The position numbers and the translations under genes were made by a program. A stretch of 41,276 nt of DNA from an uncultured Verrucomicrobiales bacterium (GTDB lineage: Bacteria > Verrucomicrobiota > Verrucomicrobiia > Verrucomicrobiales > DEV007): positions 1-41,276 of the forward strand of contig CALAHF010000004.1 in assembly GCA_937891465.1 (NCBI GenBank), in the 5' to 3' direction. Shown piece after piece: positions 6,034 through 38,441 of this stretch. A model generated the notes under the pieces. It was given only the letters and a program-made list of their open reading frames with translations. It ran no database searches and had not been told where the DNA came from. Position 1 is the stretch's first letter. Each line of letters starts with the position of its first letter.

Positions 6034-6071
6034 AAAAAAACGGAGCAGGATTTCAAAAAATCCTACTCCGT
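6034..6071 (-). terminator. Intrinsic terminator of the candidate selenoprotein gene
   Basis: Hairpin with arms ACGGAG+AGGATTT (6040-6053) and AAATCCT+CTCCGT (6058-6071), one mismatch, four-base loop. Read leftward it is followed by seven T residues (6040-6034). It ends the transcript that starts above 6557. Its 15 bases CCGTTTTTTTGTGTC on the minus strand are identical to the end of the pnp terminator. Confidence 0.88.
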
Positions 6072-6096
6072 TCTGAAATTTGGGGTTTCACGACTC

Positions 6097-6190
6097 AATC
6101 CTATTGATTCGTCGAACGCACCCTGTTGGTTCGTGAAGCCGTTTCGATCGAACAGGGTTGGTTCATCGAACATACCCCGTTGGATCGTGG
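6097..6190. repeat. Palindromic repeat, locus B
   Basis: Composite of the repeat family. The full unit CGATCGAACAGGGT (about 6145-6158), loop TGGTTCATCGAACAT, then ACCCCGTTGGATCG is preceded by a half unit ACCCTGTTGGTTCGTG (6120-6135) and a decayed half (CCTATTGATTCG). About 28 bases around GTGAAGCCGTTTCGATCG are identical to locus C inside the hydantoinase gene. It lies in the 3' untranslated part of the selenoprotein candidate, between its stop and its terminator. Confidence 0.85.
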
Positions 6191-6200
6191 CTTTACTTAT

Positions 6201-6557
6201 CTACAGCGCCACCAGCTTTTCCATGACGCCTTTGACCTTGCGCTTGCCATACATGTGGCCATCGACGGTCTCAACGATTTTTCCGCTAGCGTCTTTCCCG
6301 ACGATGCCGTGGACTTTCAGCTCTGCTTTTTTGATTTCTTCTGCGGAATTACCAGATCCTACTTTTACGGTCTCGATTGTGATTTTATCGCCGTACTCTT
6401 TTTTGAGATCATTAACTATGACCGTTATTTTTGCGCAAAGGGGTCATCCATCCAGGTAGTAATATGAGAGCTTCGCTTTTTTATCATCGGCATTTGCGAA
6501 CCCGAAGGTTACGAGCATTGCCAAGACCGGTATGAGGACTTTCCAGCATTTTGTCAT
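6201..6557 (-). CDS. Candidate selenoprotein: exported thioredoxin-fold protein with UxxC
   Basis: Read with UGA at 6446-6444 as selenocysteine this is a 118-residue protein. It has a signal peptide (MTKCWKVLIPVLAMLVTFGFANA, residues 1-23), a first strand KLSYYYLDG, then U38-P-L-C41, an amphipathic helix (ITVIVNDLKKEYGDK), a strand (ITIETVKVG) and a C-terminal HGIVGKDASGKIVETVDGH hairpin plus helix, ending at TAG 6203-6201. The UGA stands exactly where the first Cys of a thioredoxin CxxC is expected, and the frame continues intact for 80 codons with good protein-like composition. A SECIS-like hairpin follows (6407-6423). The gene has its own terminator at 6034-6071. Read conventionally it would be a pointless 37-residue peptide. 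It resembles small Cys-type thioredoxin-like proteins; no cis-Pro is obvious. The alternative is a pseudogene or a Cys-to-UGA sequencing error. Confidence 0.72.
6407..6423 (-). promoter_or_regulatory. SECIS-like hairpin downstream of UGA
   Basis: In the mRNA, GGUCAU pairs with AUGAUC (six pairs, one G-U) around the five-base loop AGUUA. The loop begins 26 bases after the last base of the UGA and has a G in its second position. This agrees with the general bacterial SECIS rule: short upper stem, small loop with G among its first two bases, about 16-37 bases after UGA. A lower stem UGACC/GGUCA starting at the UGA itself is an alternative pairing. Bacterial SECIS elements are loose, so this supports but does not prove selenocysteine insertion. 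Confidence 0.5.
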
Positions 6558-6652: not shown

Positions 6653-7249
6653 ATGCAGAAATTAATCATCTACGGGGCAGTTCTCCTCGCCATTTTCAGC
6701 CTTTTCTACGGCGGAAGTGATGTGGTGCTTGGTCCCGGCGTCAAGGCTGCAGCAGCACCAATTCAGAATGCGATCAAATTTCCGGCTCCGATCTCGATGA
6801 AGGAATTTGCGATCACCCCGTTAGCGAGCTATTCGATCACCGCGAAAATTCTATCGCGCAAAACCTATCGGATGGGGCCGCAATCGGCGTTGTCGCCTTT
6901 CGATTTTGCATTGGGCTGGGGCAATATGTCGGATGAATCGTTCATTAGTCAGTTCGAGATCGGTCAATCGGGGCGTTGGTATAACTGGAGTATTCCGGGT
7001 GAGCCTCCGATCCCGATGAAAGAAGTCAGCCAAAGCAGTGCGAATGTGTATCTGATTCCTGCGAGTTCAGCAGTCAAGGCGGTGTTGGGAGACATGAAAC
7101 AAGGTCAGGTTGTCAGTCTGCAAGGGAAGCTCGTTCGCGTGGATTCTGCTGACGGTTGGCAGTGGGAAAGTTCGCTGACTCGTGATGATACAGGGAGCCG
7201 TGCTTGTGAAGTGTTTTACGTAGAGAGCGGCTTCACGGTGATTCACTGA
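6653..7249 (+). CDS. Membrane-anchored protein of unknown function
   Basis: A 198-residue protein with one N-terminal membrane segment (LIIYGAVLLAIFSLFYGG, residues 4-21) and a soluble remainder, so probably anchored and facing the periplasm. The soluble part holds PISMKEFAITPLASYSITAKILSRKTY, then PFDFALGWGNMSD and a QSGRWYNW segment, and ends with a small beta-rich region (VVSLQGKLVRVDS). I recognise this arrangement as a conserved hypothetical type but cannot name a function. It is transcribed away from the selenoprotein candidate; the two starts are 95 bases apart, so they may share a divergent promoter region. No clear ribosome binding site precedes the ATG. Confidence 0.75.
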   Translation: MQKLIIYGAVLLAIFSLFYGGSDVVLGPGVKAAAAPIQNAIKFPAPISMKEFAITPLASYSITAKILSRKTYRMGPQSALSPFDFALGWGNMSDESFISQFEIGQSGRWYNWSIPGEPPIPMKEVSQSSANVYLIPASSAVKAVLGDMKQGQVVSLQGKLVRVDSADGWQWESSLTRDDTGSRACEVFYVESGFTVIH

Positions 7250-12073: not shown

Positions 12074-15073
12074 TTAGAAACGGTTTTCGCTGTTTTGGTC
12101 ACAAACAAGCGATCCGTTCTCTGCTACGATTGCCGTCCAGCCTGATTTTAAATAAAGGGTTGAGAATGGATCTTGGATGACAACCGGTCCTCCGATCGAT
12201 TCTCCGATTCCGAGATCAGCCCGATTTACGAACGCACCCTGTTGGTTCGGCGAACATACCCTATTGGATCGTGAAGCCGTTTCGATCGAACAGGGTTCGT
12301 TCGATGAATCAACCCTATTGGATCGTTCCGCAACAACGACAACGCGCAGGGTCACGATTTCGAGGGCTCGATTTTCAGCGGAGGAATAGCCGAAGATGGA
12401 TTCGTATTCGGAGCGATAGGCCGCTGGGATTTGTTGGGGATCGTCGATTTCGAGAGTCAGTGTGGCGTCCTGACCTTTGAGGCGAACTTCGGCAATCTGG
12501 CGTCGGATTTGCGGATTAAAATCAGCGGGGCAGCGGAGGTCACGACTCAGTTTTTCGGCTGCTTTTTCTTTGAGTTCTGAAAGAGTTTTTGGAATCGTGT
12601 CGGCGATTTTGTCATAGGACTCGAGGATTTGGCGCTCCGCAAAGCGCTCAACCTCGGCTTGATGGAGTCCATATGCAGAAAGCACACCGGCTTCGCGAGG
12701 AATGATGATCGTCGCCATTGCGAGTCGCTCAGCAATATCGCAGGCATGAAGGGGGCCGGCTCCGCCGAAAGCGAGCAAAGCGTATTCTGCAGGATCAGCG
12801 CCGTCTTGAATGGAAATGGTGCGAATCGCGTCGGCCATTTGTTCGGTCGCTATTTCGGCGAGGCCGAGGAGGAAATCGGTTGGAGAGCCATCGCTCAATT
12901 CAGCGAGGGCGGTTTCGGCAGCCGCGACATTTTCCGCTGAAATCGGAATTCCAAAATTGTCGGGATCGATCCGATTGAGGAGTAAATTGACATCGGTGAT
13001 GGTGAGGGGGCCGCCGCTGCCGTAACAGGCCGGGCCGGGATCGGCGCCTGCGGACTCGGGGCCGACGCGGATTTCTCCGGTGGCTGGATGGCGGTAACAA
13101 ATGGAGCCTCCACCTGCTGCGACGGTTTCGATTTTCAAAGATGGAGCTAGCAATGTAGCATCACCGACGCGCTGCTCGAACTGATATTGAAAGCCGCCGT
13201 TTTCGGCATCGTAGCGGGCAACGTCGGTGGAGGTGCCGCCCATATCGAAGGTGATGATTTTCTGAAATCCGAGATCGCGCGCGATGGCGGCAGCTCCGGC
13301 AACGCCTCCGGCAGGACCGGAGAGAAGTGAATCTTTCGGGTGAAACGTGACCGCAGGTTCAAGGCCGCCCGCGCTGGTCATGAGGAGGAGCGGATTTTCT
13401 GGAACGGCGGGAAGTTCGGGTTCTTCTTCGGGAGCGATCGGTACGAGGACGTTGTCCCGATCGATCAACCAGGTATCGAAGATTCGGAAAACGCCGCTGT
13501 CATCGATGCGCACGTTGTCCGGCGTGACGTCGACCATTTCGAGTCCGTCGTCTCGATAATAAACGATGCCGTCGCCGGTTTCGAAGCCGAGTTTGTCCAT
13601 TTCATCCATGATTTCATCCGGATGCGGCTTTCTGCCAGCCACGAACGGCTGAACGGTGAGAACAACGCCACGACCTTCACGATTTCTGGCAAAGCCGAGG
13701 AATTCGCAGGCGGTTTTCGGGGTAAAAGCGTTGAATTCGACCCAGCGATGAAGGTATTGCCATGGGGTTTTCCACGGTAAACCGTATTTGTCACCGATGG
13801 TGAGACGGACGATGAGGTGATCGGCTTCAAACAGAAAAGCGCGGTGTTCGTTGCCGACAGATATGTGACCGGCGGCGCGACCGAGTTGGTCGATGTCTTC
13901 AATTTCCCAAAAAAGCCCGTTTTTGCGAGACCAGTGCTCTAGCTCGTCTTCTTGTCGCTCGATTCGGACTGCGTTTGCTTCGCTGTCGACGGCGGTCCAA
14001 ACTCCTTCATCATCTCCTGGTGTGAGCTGTGATTGGGCGCGAATGACTGGAACTGTCGGGTAGCTTCTTCCGCCGATACTTTCTGTAGCGGCTTGGTGGA
14101 GGAAGTTGGGTAGAGATTCACATTTTGATGGTACAGGATTTTGGTTAAGATTTCCAGAGCTTTCTAGCGGCTTGATCGCGTTCCGGACTTTGTCGACAAG
14201 GGCCCGCATCACCGGAGTGAGGTAGGCGTTGATCACAGCGGTTTCAGCTCGAGGCAGGATTTTGATGAGCGGCGCGAGTTTTGAACTGAGCGAAACGTGA
14301 TTGAATCCGTATTTTAGCAGTTTTTCCCGAATGATCCGTTCGTGGGCGGGATTTGCGTGACTGTGGAGTAAAGCGACGGCGGCAACGCGAATACCGTGCG
14401 CAAGGAGATCGGCTGCGATTCTCTCCAAGCCGCTGAGGTCGGGCGCTTCGAGAACCGTTCCGTCTGCGGCGAGGCGTTCGTCGATTTCGATAACGGTTTC
14501 GTAAAGTGGCTCGGGTCGGATGTGGTTGAGCGCAAAGAGATCGGGGCGGCGTTGATCGCGGATGACGAGGAGGTCGCGAAAGCCGCGGGTTACGAAAAAT
14601 GCGACCGGGGCACCTTTTCGTTCGAGCAGTGCGTTGGTTCCGCGCGTTGTGGCGAGGCGGAAATCGAGCGGTGGAAAAGCGGAGGTGAGACCTGTTCCGG
14701 TGAGAAGTCGCGCCCCGAGAACGGGGGCTTCTTCGTTGGTTGTTAGCTCGAGGCTTTTGGGTGAGGTCTCACGCAGAGGCGCGGAGACGCAGAGGATTTT
14801 TGTGGTGTCGTTCCAAGCGATGACGGCGGTGTTTTCTTCGATGGTGAAACCGTTGAAAAAGTCGTCGGGAGCGTTCCAGTTTTCGGGGATTTCGAGGCGG
14901 AAGGTGGTGGCGTCGATCTGCTCGGCGACGGCGATGCGGAGTTTGCCTGATGAGAGGACTTTGACGAGTCGCGGTTCGGAATCGCCCGGTGCAAGCGCCC
15001 AACAATCCGAGAACGTCCCGCCGGTATCGACGCGAATTTTCCAAAGTTGGGATTGATTTTCGGGATTGCTCAC
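12074..15073 (-). CDS. Hydantoinase/5-oxoprolinase A-type protein with inserted kinase-fold domain
   Basis: A 999-residue protein; ordinary HyuA subunits have about 650-720. Residues 1-302 and 559-999 are HyuA: RVDTGGTFSD (phosphate 1 loop), ATTRGTNALLER, INAYLTPVMRAL, then MTSAGGLEP, LLSGPAGGVAGAA, TFDMGGTSTDVA, GPESAGADPGPACYG and LLAFGGAGPLHACDIAERL. The family uses ATP to open cyclic amides such as 5-oxoproline or hydantoins and normally works with a HyuB subunit, which is absent here. Residues about 303-558 are foreign: a kinase-fold domain (listed separately) sits in the loop just before MTSAGG. Residues about 917-949 are translated palindromic repeat (locus C). The frame is nevertheless intact, so the protein may be made, but activity is uncertain. 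Confidence 0.85.
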   Translation of the reverse strand: MSNPENQSQLWKIRVDTGGTFSDCWALAPGDSEPRLVKVLSSGKLRIAVAEQIDATTFRLEIPENWNAPDDFFNGFTIEENTAVIAWNDTTKILCVSAPLRETSPKSLELTTNEEAPVLGARLLTGTGLTSAFPPLDFRLATTRGTNALLERKGAPVAFFVTRGFRDLLVIRDQRRPDLFALNHIRPEPLYETVIEIDERLAADGTVLEAPDLSGLERIAADLLAHGIRVAAVALLHSHANPAHERIIREKLLKYGFNHVSLSSKLAPLIKILPRAETAVINAYLTPVMRALVDKVRNAIKPLESSGNLNQNPVPSKCESLPNFLHQAATESIGGRSYPTVPVIRAQSQLTPGDDEGVWTAVDSEANAVRIERQEDELEHWSRKNGLFWEIEDIDQLGRAAGHISVGNEHRAFLFEADHLIVRLTIGDKYGLPWKTPWQYLHRWVEFNAFTPKTACEFLGFARNREGRGVVLTVQPFVAGRKPHPDEIMDEMDKLGFETGDGIVYYRDDGLEMVDVTPDNVRIDDSGVFRIFDTWLIDRDNVLVPIAPEEEPELPAVPENPLLLMTSAGGLEPAVTFHPKDSLLSGPAGGVAGAAAIARDLGFQKIITFDMGGTSTDVARYDAENGGFQYQFEQRVGDATLLAPSLKIETVAAGGGSICYRHPATGEIRVGPESAGADPGPACYGSGGPLTITDVNLLLNRIDPDNFGIPISAENVAAAETALAELSDGSPTDFLLGLAEIATEQMADAIRTISIQDGADPAEYALLAFGGAGPLHACDIAERLAMATIIIPREAGVLSAYGLHQAEVERFAERQILESYDKIADTIPKTLSELKEKAAEKLSRDLRCPADFNPQIRRQIAEVRLKGQDATLTLEIDDPQQIPAAYRSEYESIFGYSSAENRALEIVTLRVVVVAERSNRVDSSNEPCSIETASRSNRVCSPNQQGAFVNRADLGIGESIGGPVVIQDPFSTLYLKSGWTAIVAENGSLVCDQNSENRF
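12227..12326. repeat. Palindromic repeat, locus C, inside a coding region
   Basis: Two units of the repeat family: ACCCTGTTGGTTCG, GCGAACAT, ACCCTATTGGATCGTG (12236-12273), then CGATCGAACAGGGTT, 13-base loop, AACCCTATTGGATCG (12283-12325). It is read through on the minus strand as residues about 917-949 of the hydantoinase-type protein, including RSNRVDSSNEPC and RSNRVCSPNQQ, with no frame change. It lies in a linker near the C-terminus, where HyuA proteins tolerate variation. Confidence 0.88.
13400..14167 (-). other. Inserted polyvalent-protein-kinase-like domain
   Basis: Encodes residues about 303-558 of the hydantoinase-type protein. The pattern is that of small kinase-fold domains found in phage and plasmid polyvalent proteins and as free proteins in verrucomicrobia: GNEHRAFLFEADHLIVRLT (nucleotide loop and strand 3, with Arg423 where Lys is usual), TPWQYLHRWVEFN, FLGFARNREG, LTVQPFVAG, then the catalytic VDVTPDNV (D515, N520 at the normal spacing) and IFDTW (D533, like the DFG Asp). 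A proline-rich linker (EEEPELPAVPENP) returns to HyuA. The domain boundaries are approximate. Confidence 0.65.
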
Positions 15074-19301: not shown

Positions 19302-19326
19302 AAAGCTGAGGTTGGCGTTTTTCTAT

Positions 19327-19365
19327 TGAACAGGGGTTGTTCGGCGAATATACCCTGATTGCTCG
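19327..19365. repeat. Palindromic repeat, locus D
   Basis: Diverged single unit: GAACAGGGGTTGTTCGGCGAA, then TATACCCTGATTGCTCG. The middle GGCGAA-ATACCCT matches the first unit of locus C (GGCGAACATACCCT). It fills the space between the LON-domain gene and the vapC stop codon, both of which converge on it. Confidence 0.65.
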
Positions 19366-19366
19366 A

Positions 19367-19762
19367 TTAATAACTCTCGACAGTCAGGCCGTTGACTCGT
19401 TCAAAATGTGCCACGTTTCGAGTCACCAGCGGCAGATTTTCCTCAAGAGCGATTGCCGCAACCCAGAGATCATTTCCGCCGATCAAATTCCCGTTTTCCT
19501 TCATGCTGCGGTAAATTCTGCCATATTTTTTTGCAGCGCCAACACCGACTTCGAGAATTTCGTGTTGATGTTCGAGAGTTACGATTTCAGGAGCGCTGGG
19601 ATCACTAAAGCCTGCACTAAATTCCCCAAGAACGATTGAGGGGATCTTTAATATCACGTTCGGATTTTTCTTCAGCCAGGCAATTGCTTGCTGATTTCTC
19701 GCGTTCCGATGGCTTCGCTGAAGGTCGATCAGGAAGGTTGTATCCAAGATCGCTTCAGTCAT
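19367..19762 (-). CDS. vapC: PIN-domain toxin (VapC-like)
   Basis: A 131-residue protein, standard for VapC (about 125-140). PIN acidic residues are in place: D7 in AILDTTFLIDL, Glu in VLGEFSAG, Asp in GGNDLWVAAIAL, and the last LVTRNVAHFERV where Asn replaces the more usual Asp. VapC toxins are magnesium-dependent ribonucleases that cut tRNA or rRNA and stop growth. The ATG at 19762 lies in ATGACTGA, overlapping the antitoxin stop, typical of toxin-antitoxin pairs; the ATG just before (19765) is also possible. It is transcribed with the upstream vapB-type gene. Confidence 0.88.
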   Translation of the reverse strand: MTEAILDTTFLIDLQRSHRNARNQQAIAWLKKNPNVILKIPSIVLGEFSAGFSDPSAPEIVTLEHQHEILEVGVGAAKKYGRIYRSMKENGNLIGGNDLWVAAIALEENLPLVTRNVAHFERVNGLTVESY

Positions 19763-22325: not shown

Positions 22326-22413
22326 AACAGGGAGGACGCCGTTTCTTGACGGATCAACCCTGTTGCTCCACGATCAGACCCTGTTGATTCATCGAACCAA
22401 CCCTGTTTGATCG
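22326..22413. repeat. Palindromic repeat, locus E
   Basis: Three half units in tandem, ATCAACCCTGTTGCTCCACG (22353-22372), ATCAGACCCTGTTGATTCATCG (22373-22394) and AACCAACCCTGTTTGATCG, preceded by a lone AACAGGG (22326-22332). It fills the gap between the DUF1501 gene and the sulfatase and reaches to seven bases before the sulfatase ATG, thus taking the place of a ribosome binding site. Confidence 0.75.
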
Positions 22414-22419
22414 TAAAAA

Positions 22420-35521: not shown

Positions 35522-35548
35522 TTTCGACTTCAATCAGAAGACAGTTTT

Positions 35549-35671
35549 ACGATCCAATAGGGTCGTAAGATGGCTTGCCAGTGGTCTGAGGATTCTCGCG
35601 ATGCAGAACCGGAAGACAGCCCTTATACAAACGTACAGGGTGCGTCCGACAAACAAACCCTGTTGCTTCGT
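35549..35671. repeat. Palindromic repeat, locus F
   Basis: Two parts: a half unit CGATCCAATAGGGTCG (35550-35565) and a full but diverged unit GTACAGGGTGCGTCCGAC, AAACAA, ACCCTGTTGCTTCGTAA (35633-35673). Between and around them I see no coding evidence. It lies between the oxidoreductase gene and the small lipoprotein gene. Confidence 0.65.
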
Positions 35672-35733
35672 AAAACGGCTCAACGACTTGCGGACTTGAA
35701 TTGTTAGCGGGTTTCGGTTTACAAATAAGACGC

Positions 35734-37523: not shown

Positions 37524-38441
37524 ATGAAGGTGAATAATCGAATCAGCCGAATTTTTCGAACCAACAGGGTTGGCTCATCGAACATACCCTGTTGGTTCGT
37601 GGGGATTATTTTTGTGATGTGCTCAGGGTTTGTGGTGGGGCAGCAAACTTTGACCGATGGAAGCGACCCCGATATGTTGCGCGGATTGCAGGCTGTGAAG
37701 TTTGTGAAATTGCGTCCGCGACAGCAAACTATCCCTGCGAATTTTCTGAAGTTTTATCTGACTTTTCCCGAAAAAATGGAACGAGGTGTGGCTTTCGAGC
37801 ATCTTTCATTGTTGAAAGAGCTGAAACCTAGCAAGACTGAGCCGGTGCTCGAACCCTTTCGCGAAGTGGAGTTGTGGGACGAAACTGGAACGCGATTGAC
37901 GTTGTGGCTGCATCCGGGACGGCAGAAGCCAGGGGTGAATTTGAATGTGGAGTTTGGACCGATTTTGGAGTCGGGAAACATTTATCATCTCGTGGTTTCA
38001 AACGATTGGAAGACGGAGAAAGGCACTGAATTAGGAATTGATTCCGTTTTCTATCTGATGGCTGGTGCTTCAGATGTTCGCCAACCAAAACCGCAAAAGT
38101 GGGAACTGAAGGTGACTCCAGAACAAGTCGCAATTACGCCGTGTTGGAGCTGGAACCCACGAATTATCGACAAACTGGACCCAATGTCTTTTGTTAAACG
38201 AATCACGGTTCGAGACGCTGACGGGAAAGGCGTTCTGGTGATTGCTGACGGCGACCATTTGACAATTTCGCCTTTGAATAATAAAACTTTTTCGCCAGGA
38301 AAATATCAGCTCGTCGTGGATCCTAAACTGGAAGATTTAGCCGGAAACAGCGTGGGGCGGCCCTTCAATGTAGATCTGGAGAAGAATCCTGATTTTCAGG
38401 AGCGAACAGAACCGGTGATTTTGGATTTTGTAGTGAAGTAG
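37524..38441 (+). CDS. Exported protein with repeat-encoded N-terminus, unknown function
   Basis: A 305-residue protein. The ATG at 37524 gives MKVNNRISRIF, then RTNRVGSSNIPCWFV, which is translated palindromic repeat (locus G), and GIIFVMCSGFVVGQQ. The hydrophobic core of the signal peptide is thus partly made by the repeat (PCWFV). The only later ATG (37616) would leave a signal peptide too short to work. The mature part begins TLTDGSDPDMLRGLQ and has beta-sandwich character with an Ig-like segment near the end (NNKTFSPGKYQLVVDPKLEDLAGNSVG), a pattern typical of SbsA-type Ig-like domains. Function unknown. Confidence 0.75.
   Translation: MKVNNRISRIFRTNRVGSSNIPCWFVGIIFVMCSGFVVGQQTLTDGSDPDMLRGLQAVKFVKLRPRQQTIPANFLKFYLTFPEKMERGVAFEHLSLLKELKPSKTEPVLEPFREVELWDETGTRLTLWLHPGRQKPGVNLNVEFGPILESGNIYHLVVSNDWKTEKGTELGIDSVFYLMAGASDVRQPKPQKWELKVTPEQVAITPCWSWNPRIIDKLDPMSFVKRITVRDADGKGVLVIADGDHLTISPLNNKTFSPGKYQLVVDPKLEDLAGNSVGRPFNVDLEKNPDFQERTEPVILDFVVK
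37557..37599. repeat. Palindromic repeat, locus G (best copy)
   Basis: The most regular copy: perfect 14-base inverted arms CGAACCAACAGGGT (37557-37570) and ACCCTGTTGGTTCG (37586-37599) around a 15-base loop TGGCTCATCGAACAT. The loop is nearly identical to that at locus B (TGGTTCATCGAACAT). It is translated as part of the exported protein starting at 37524, in the same frame as locus C. Confidence 0.92.

Follow-up and report, generated by a model that had tools for sequence, protein, structure and literature searches.

Within the 41,276-nucleotide stretch of DNA analysed here (the window), a gene on the minus strand very probably encodes a small exported selenoprotein, in which UGA at codon 38 would be decoded with the help of SelB and a SECIS hairpin, and in which a Sec-x-x-Cys pair on a thioredoxin (Trx) fold would perform selenol-based thiol-disulfide exchange in the periplasm. 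The frame (6557-6201, minus strand) begins with ATG, continues with 117 further codons, including one TGA (codon 38, 6446-6444), and ends with TAG; the 80 codons downstream of the TGA are open. With U written for TGA, the protein reads MTKCWKVLIPVLAMLVTFGFANADDKKAKLSYYYLDGUPLCAKITVIVNDLKKEYGDKITIETVKVGSGNSAEEIKKAELKVHGIVGKDASGKIVETVDGHMYGKRKVKGVMEKLVAL, and its N-terminus carries a plain signal peptide, MTKCWKVLIPVLAMLVTFGFANA, whose predicted removal leaves a mature protein of 95 residues. A preliminary description of this DNA had reported a lone in-frame TGA in a 118-codon frame, with a signal peptide before it and 80 codons after it, and all of its coordinates hold. The features of the gene are the following:

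6201..6557, minus strand: putative selenoprotein gene encoding 118 residues, with Sec at position 38, followed by a TAG stop (reading frame; family comparison).
6489..6557, minus strand: predicted 23-residue signal peptide, cleaved after ANA (sequence; 45/45 family members have a hydrophobic stretch and, after it, an AxA-like site).
6444..6446, minus strand: UGA as candidate selenocysteine codon (Sec38; TGA at the same codon in 43/43 members from the same order and 42/42 genome_contigs loci).
6435..6446, minus strand: putative redox motif U-P-L-C (Sec38, Cys41) at the start of helix 1 (Cys41 invariant; model strand 29-34, helix 39-55).
6407..6423, minus strand: putative SECIS apical hairpin GGUCAU-AGUUA-AUGAUC, 20 nt 3' of the UGA, loop xGUxx (loop GU in 45/45; pairing; peak of synonymous conservation).
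6306..6311, minus strand: invariant His83-Gly84 codons, in the loop that corresponds to the cis-proline site of thioredoxins (45/45; alignment to Trx).
6255..6260, minus strand: invariant Gly100-His101 codons (45/45).
6037..6074, minus strand: intrinsic-terminator-like hairpin 3' of the gene (one found vs. 1.3 expected by chance).

The reading of the UGA was examined across relatives of the gene. A search of 384 class members returned one relative, from another family of the same order, which was 60% identical and carried TGA in the same place. A two-row profile search over 387 genomes of the order then yielded 43 members including the window's own gene, spanning two families and at least 10 genera, and each of them contained exactly one internal stop, always TGA and always at the same residue. 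In a scan of genome_contigs performed with the post-TGA sequence only, in order to avoid bias, 42 loci were recovered, all 42 with TGA at the Sec codon; their titles named Verrucomicrobiales, Akkermansiaceae, Roseibacillus, Rubritalea and, once, Lentisphaerales, many of them marine. This alignment-based scan succeeded where a single-sequence scan of genome_contigs had given no match, because the exact peptide patterns used in the latter were too specific. The two sets overlap, and their union comprises 45 non-redundant genes differing in DNA, none of which (0/45) has a cysteine codon (TGC or TGT) at the Sec position. No member was found in a phylum-wide sample of 388 genomes besides the gene of the source genome itself, and therefore the spread outside certain marine clades is patchy. 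Weak class-wide matches (L024 to L038) were dropped as ordinary thioredoxins, DsbA-like proteins or chance matches.

As is characteristic of bacterial selenoproteins, the in-frame UGA is flanked by conserved coding sequence on both sides. Downstream of the TGA, a median dN/dS of 0.18 (178 usable pairs) indicated purifying selection, and no other stops follow it in family members. Nine residues were invariant in a 22-row alignment, with Cys41 among the invariant positions. The UPLC motif, to whose first residue the TGA had earlier been assigned, is placed at Sec38/Cys41. A sequencing error in a TGC or TGT codon, a concern raised in the preliminary description, is excluded because the TGA is identical across dozens of independent assemblies. 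Taken at the level of sequence, these comparisons indicate that an amino acid is inserted at the UGA of codon 38.

The putative SECIS hairpin is 17 nt long (6423-6407, minus strand), starts exactly 20 nt past the UGA and has the loop AGUUA, with G at loop position 2. The minimal SECIS hairpin of E. coli has the same length, 17 nt, and its loop likewise contains G and U. More generally, bacterial SECIS elements share a small apical loop containing G (PMC1088965), a property also of the element found here, shortly 3' of the UGA. On its own, the hairpin did not fold with a better energy than shuffled sequences (z about -0.4), and a single sequence would thus not support it; the support comes from the comparison across the 45 genes. 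Here, the form GGUCAU-xGUxx-AUGAyC was kept in 45/45, every gene having G and U as the second and third loop bases. Across the six stem pairs, 97.2% of cells were paired, compared to 14-48% in slid controls in which the partners were shifted by 1 to 3 columns, and four cells had changed on both sides (U-A to C-G in three distinct rows, G-C to A-U in one). A sharp peak of synonymous conservation was also observed at codons +7 to +11, which are the hairpin-forming codons: Val +8 was GTC in 95% of pairs and Asn +11 was AAT in 100%, while at most other conserved Val positions only 22-41% of pairs shared a codon. The hairpin at 6407-6423 with a five-base, G-containing loop that had been noted before is confirmed, and conserved throughout the family. 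These observations bear on whether the UGA might be a real stop, owing to a pseudogene, a sequencing error or the presence of two separate frames. The unremarkable folding energy of the lone hairpin is what this reading has in its favor; against it stand the recurrence of the TGA in dozens of independent assemblies, purifying selection downstream and, within the hairpin, covarying pairs as well as synonymous conservation. We give it almost no credence, as conservation already refutes it.

With regard to the selenocysteine machinery, the source genome encodes selA (496 bits), selB (283 bits; 647 residues, with a SelB-type beta-barrel and the winged helices SelB-wing_2 and wing_3) and selD (278 bits), the latter as a fusion to a pyridine-nucleotide oxidoreductase. 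In this fusion protein (L020 1393-3639, minus strand, 748 aa), the oxidoreductase domain is N-terminal. The tRNA-Sec gene of the source genome is incomplete, being cut by the end of contig C113; its 89 nt are near-identical to the complete tRNA-Sec of a genus mate, with anticodon UCA. A full tRNA-Sec was present in 10/11 related genomes searched, one further observation being that genome G427 has two matches about 0.7 kb apart (C73:119883-119977 and 120585-120679), both above the Rfam cut-off. All four components for which the preliminary description had suggested a search are thus present, the tRNA gene being cut at the contig end. Further, selA was detected in 40/43 member genomes compared to 80/344 non-member genomes of the order (Fisher p 1e-19, a value that ignores relatedness); the three member genomes without selA are 54-72% complete.

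Insertion of tryptophan or cysteine at the UGA, through a change of the genetic code or a suppressor tRNA, would likewise be in line with an in-frame UGA that is decoded. We nevertheless judge it very improbable. UGA acts as a normal stop, ending 9/28 window genes as well as several family members themselves, so that the genetic code is unchanged; the full Sec machinery is present and the family co-occurs with selA; and distant homologues carry cysteine, not tryptophan, at this position. A code change was rejected on the grounds of conservation, normal TGA stops and the Sec machinery.

These distant homologues (n=4) were found in genomes of the same family and show C-F-L-C, a C-x-x-C motif, in register with the Sec motif. 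They keep the His-Gly and the second His, have lipoprotein-like N-termini, match at E 1e-7 to 1e-11 and form one separate, long branch in the tree. One genome (G464) carries both the Sec and the Cys form. At the four Cys-form loci (L081, L082, L083 and L084), the motif reads FYxIPxCFLC within a lipoprotein-like protein, and at L081 and L082 an alpha/beta-hydrolase-like frame lies directly upstream. No close Cys orthologues were found in the sample. Cysteine among homologues, another mark of bacterial selenoproteins, is thus confined to distant lipoprotein-like relatives (0/45 close genes). Aligned across the UGA, as had been proposed, the family therefore retains Sec (UGA) in 45 close genes and Cys in distant ones. 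Since Cys stands in register in deep branches and is absent from the Sec clade, Sec and Cys appear to be exchanged across deep branches, with no reversion within the Sec clade in this sample. The earlier view that Sec is inserted is supported by the presence of the machinery, by homologues with Sec or Cys and by the recurrence of the TGA, with no refuting result, as far as sequence comparison can indicate.

The surroundings of the gene were also analyzed. In family neighborhoods, no conserved operon partner naming a substrate or an electron donor was found; family genes stand alone, and the context is uninformative on function because neighbors differ between lineages. The lineage-specific neighbors, presumably DUF1501, DUF1553 or cytochrome-type genes, are conserved only locally and are common in the phylum. 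Divergent from the selenoprotein gene, a 198-aa frame (6653-7249, plus strand) has no Pfam match. Downstream, the strong terminator previously said to close the gene does exist as a hairpin (6074-6037, 17 pairs and a T tail). It is, however, weaker and farther away than described, and the claim is only fair, because the hairpin begins 127 nt past the stop codon, with repeats in between, and about 1.3 such sites were expected by chance. The intervening copies belong to a dispersed repeat of approximately 49 nt with the core CGAACCAACAGGGT, for which 24 matches with up to 3 mismatches were counted vs. 3 expected (6088-6190, 12226-12328, 19320-19368, 22357-22416, 35541-35673 and 37554-37602). Besides sitting just 3' of the selenoprotein gene, the repeat extends into ORFs, and similar peptide traces (SNRVGSSN) occur on another contig of the genome (L018).

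The AlphaFold model of the protein had a pLDDT of 86.5 overall and of about 96 over the domain (residues 29-117), with the predicted topology strand-helix-strand-helix-strand-strand-helix. Foldseek and VIA-align identified a thioredoxin fold (Z 13.3, 87 residues, 1.6 angstrom), and a viral structure library matched only generic thioredoxins. The model places Sec38 and Cys41 where helix 1 begins. The family thus has the fold of thioredoxins (PF00085, TIGR01068), including the known Sec thioredoxins with U-x-x-C, and the same placement of a C/U-x-x-C active pair. Unlike thioredoxins, it has a signal peptide, an extra invariant Gly-His (Gly100-His101) and, in place of the cis-proline that precedes strand 3, the invariant His83-Gly84; the window protein has no proline after residue 39. 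In the fold searches, it was 10-24% identical to thioredoxins of solved structure, and none of the Pfam and NCBIfam models reached its cut-off for the window protein, PF00085 scoring 13.6 bits vs. the curated 23.5.

Based on this architecture, a periplasmic selenol-based thiol-disulfide reductase is the most likely function, a model-based proposal with metal binding as a live rival. By analogy with the known bacterial pathway, SelB would bring Sec-tRNA-Sec to the ribosome on the hairpin; the chain would then be exported to the periplasm and its signal peptide removed. Fold and motif suggest that the mature 95-residue Trx fold would present Sec38-x-x-Cys41 at the start of helix 1, where the selenol of Sec38 would attack an oxidized periplasmic substrate and Cys41 would resolve the selenenyl-sulfide. 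A membrane thiol donor, for example a DsbD/CcdA-type protein, might recharge the pair. The substrate, the donor and the reductase direction of the exchange are guesses. Both invariant histidines, His83 and His101, would be expected to lie close to the active site. A point against the redox interpretation is that the protein lacks the cis-proline that thiol-disulfide oxidoreductases typically have.

Alternatively, the selenoprotein might use Sec, Cys and the invariant His residues to bind a soft metal, for example Cu(I), in the periplasm, as a Sco-like chaperone or sensor. Sco copper chaperones likewise are exported Trx-fold proteins with a thiol pair and a His able to ligate metal. The replacement of the cis-proline by an invariant His-Gly, the second invariant Gly-His (45/45), the presence of both His residues in the Cys forms as well, and periplasmic export all fit such a role, which stays alive because the cis-proline, missing here, is proposed to keep metals from binding (PMC2757866). 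However, Sco proteins have a C-x-x-x-C motif and a larger domain, compared to U-x-x-C here, and there was no sequence match: no member matched SCO1-SenC at E 0.1, nor was any metal-chaperone family matched. Further, no metal gene adjoins the gene, and the His positions come from alignment rather than measured distances. We therefore regard metal binding as unlikely, and somewhat more unlikely in its specific form of a Trx-fold periplasmic site of Sec, Cys and invariant His that would be a selenium counterpart of Sco-type chaperones, in which Sec would appear obligatory because no close Cys version exists.

A further alternative is a selenoprotein peroxidase or another selenol reductase acting on small molecules (peroxide, methionine sulfoxide or arsenate) and not on protein disulfides. 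Enzymes of this kind typically contain Sec, as tabulated in PMC13188914, and the cis-proline is missing from peroxiredoxins too (PMC2757866). We consider this more doubtful again: no peroxiredoxin, GPx, ArsC or Msr model reached its cut-off, U-x-x-C is of the disulfide-exchange type, and the fold matches thioredoxins. The periplasmic thiol-disulfide reductase thus remains our preferred reading.

Regarding known selenoproteins, the sole selenoprotein models touching the window protein were SaoT, TsoX and the DF-family (NF040730, NF045809 and NF049942), all small Trx-like selenoproteins, with partial matches of 14-17 bits vs. cut-offs of 52-70. The family also weakly touches NF038096 (slr1796). 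GOS_C/Omp28_seleno (NF045500) is listed as a U-x-x-C protein with a Trx-like fold from marine metagenomes (PMC2398784, PMC13188914); identity with it was rejected, as this 377-position Omp28-type model gave no match to E 10 in the whole genome. The loosely defined 'Trx-like 3' group of the Global Ocean Sampling (GOS) survey (weak cd02950 match), compared by description only, is also marine, with U-x-x-C and weak Trx similarity. For that group, 183 Cys homologues vs. 212 Sec forms were reported in ocean data (PMC2398784), in contrast with the family described here, for which no close Cys form was found; the two may overlap.

A review of 2026 listed 119 prokaryotic selenoprotein families (PMC13188914), none of which matches by model or motif, and our literature searches turned up neither a paper on Verrucomicrobia in which this selenoprotein is described nor an existing family name. 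That this is a new family of Trx-fold U-x-x-C selenoproteins is supported but not proven. The preliminary description, which did not recognize a described selenoprotein family, accordingly stands with respect to Pfam, NCBIfam and the 119 families, and less so with respect to 'Trx-like 3', which might contain it. The family is uncommon in two respects: His-Gly occupies the cis-proline site, and close Cys orthologues are lacking. Two published discovery pipelines demand Cys or known Sec homologues (PMC1088965, PMC12013277) and probably pass the family over, because none are close here; this requirement may be the reason why it was overlooked.

A standard gene caller would truncate the protein at residue 37, and the family is widespread in marine Verrucomicrobiota, where little selenoprotein literature was found. 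As Sec is present in every close member, the family makes it possible to ask why Cys does not replace Sec, and, with His-Gly standing where thioredoxins have the cis-proline, redox and metal function can be tested against each other directly on a protein only about 95 residues long.
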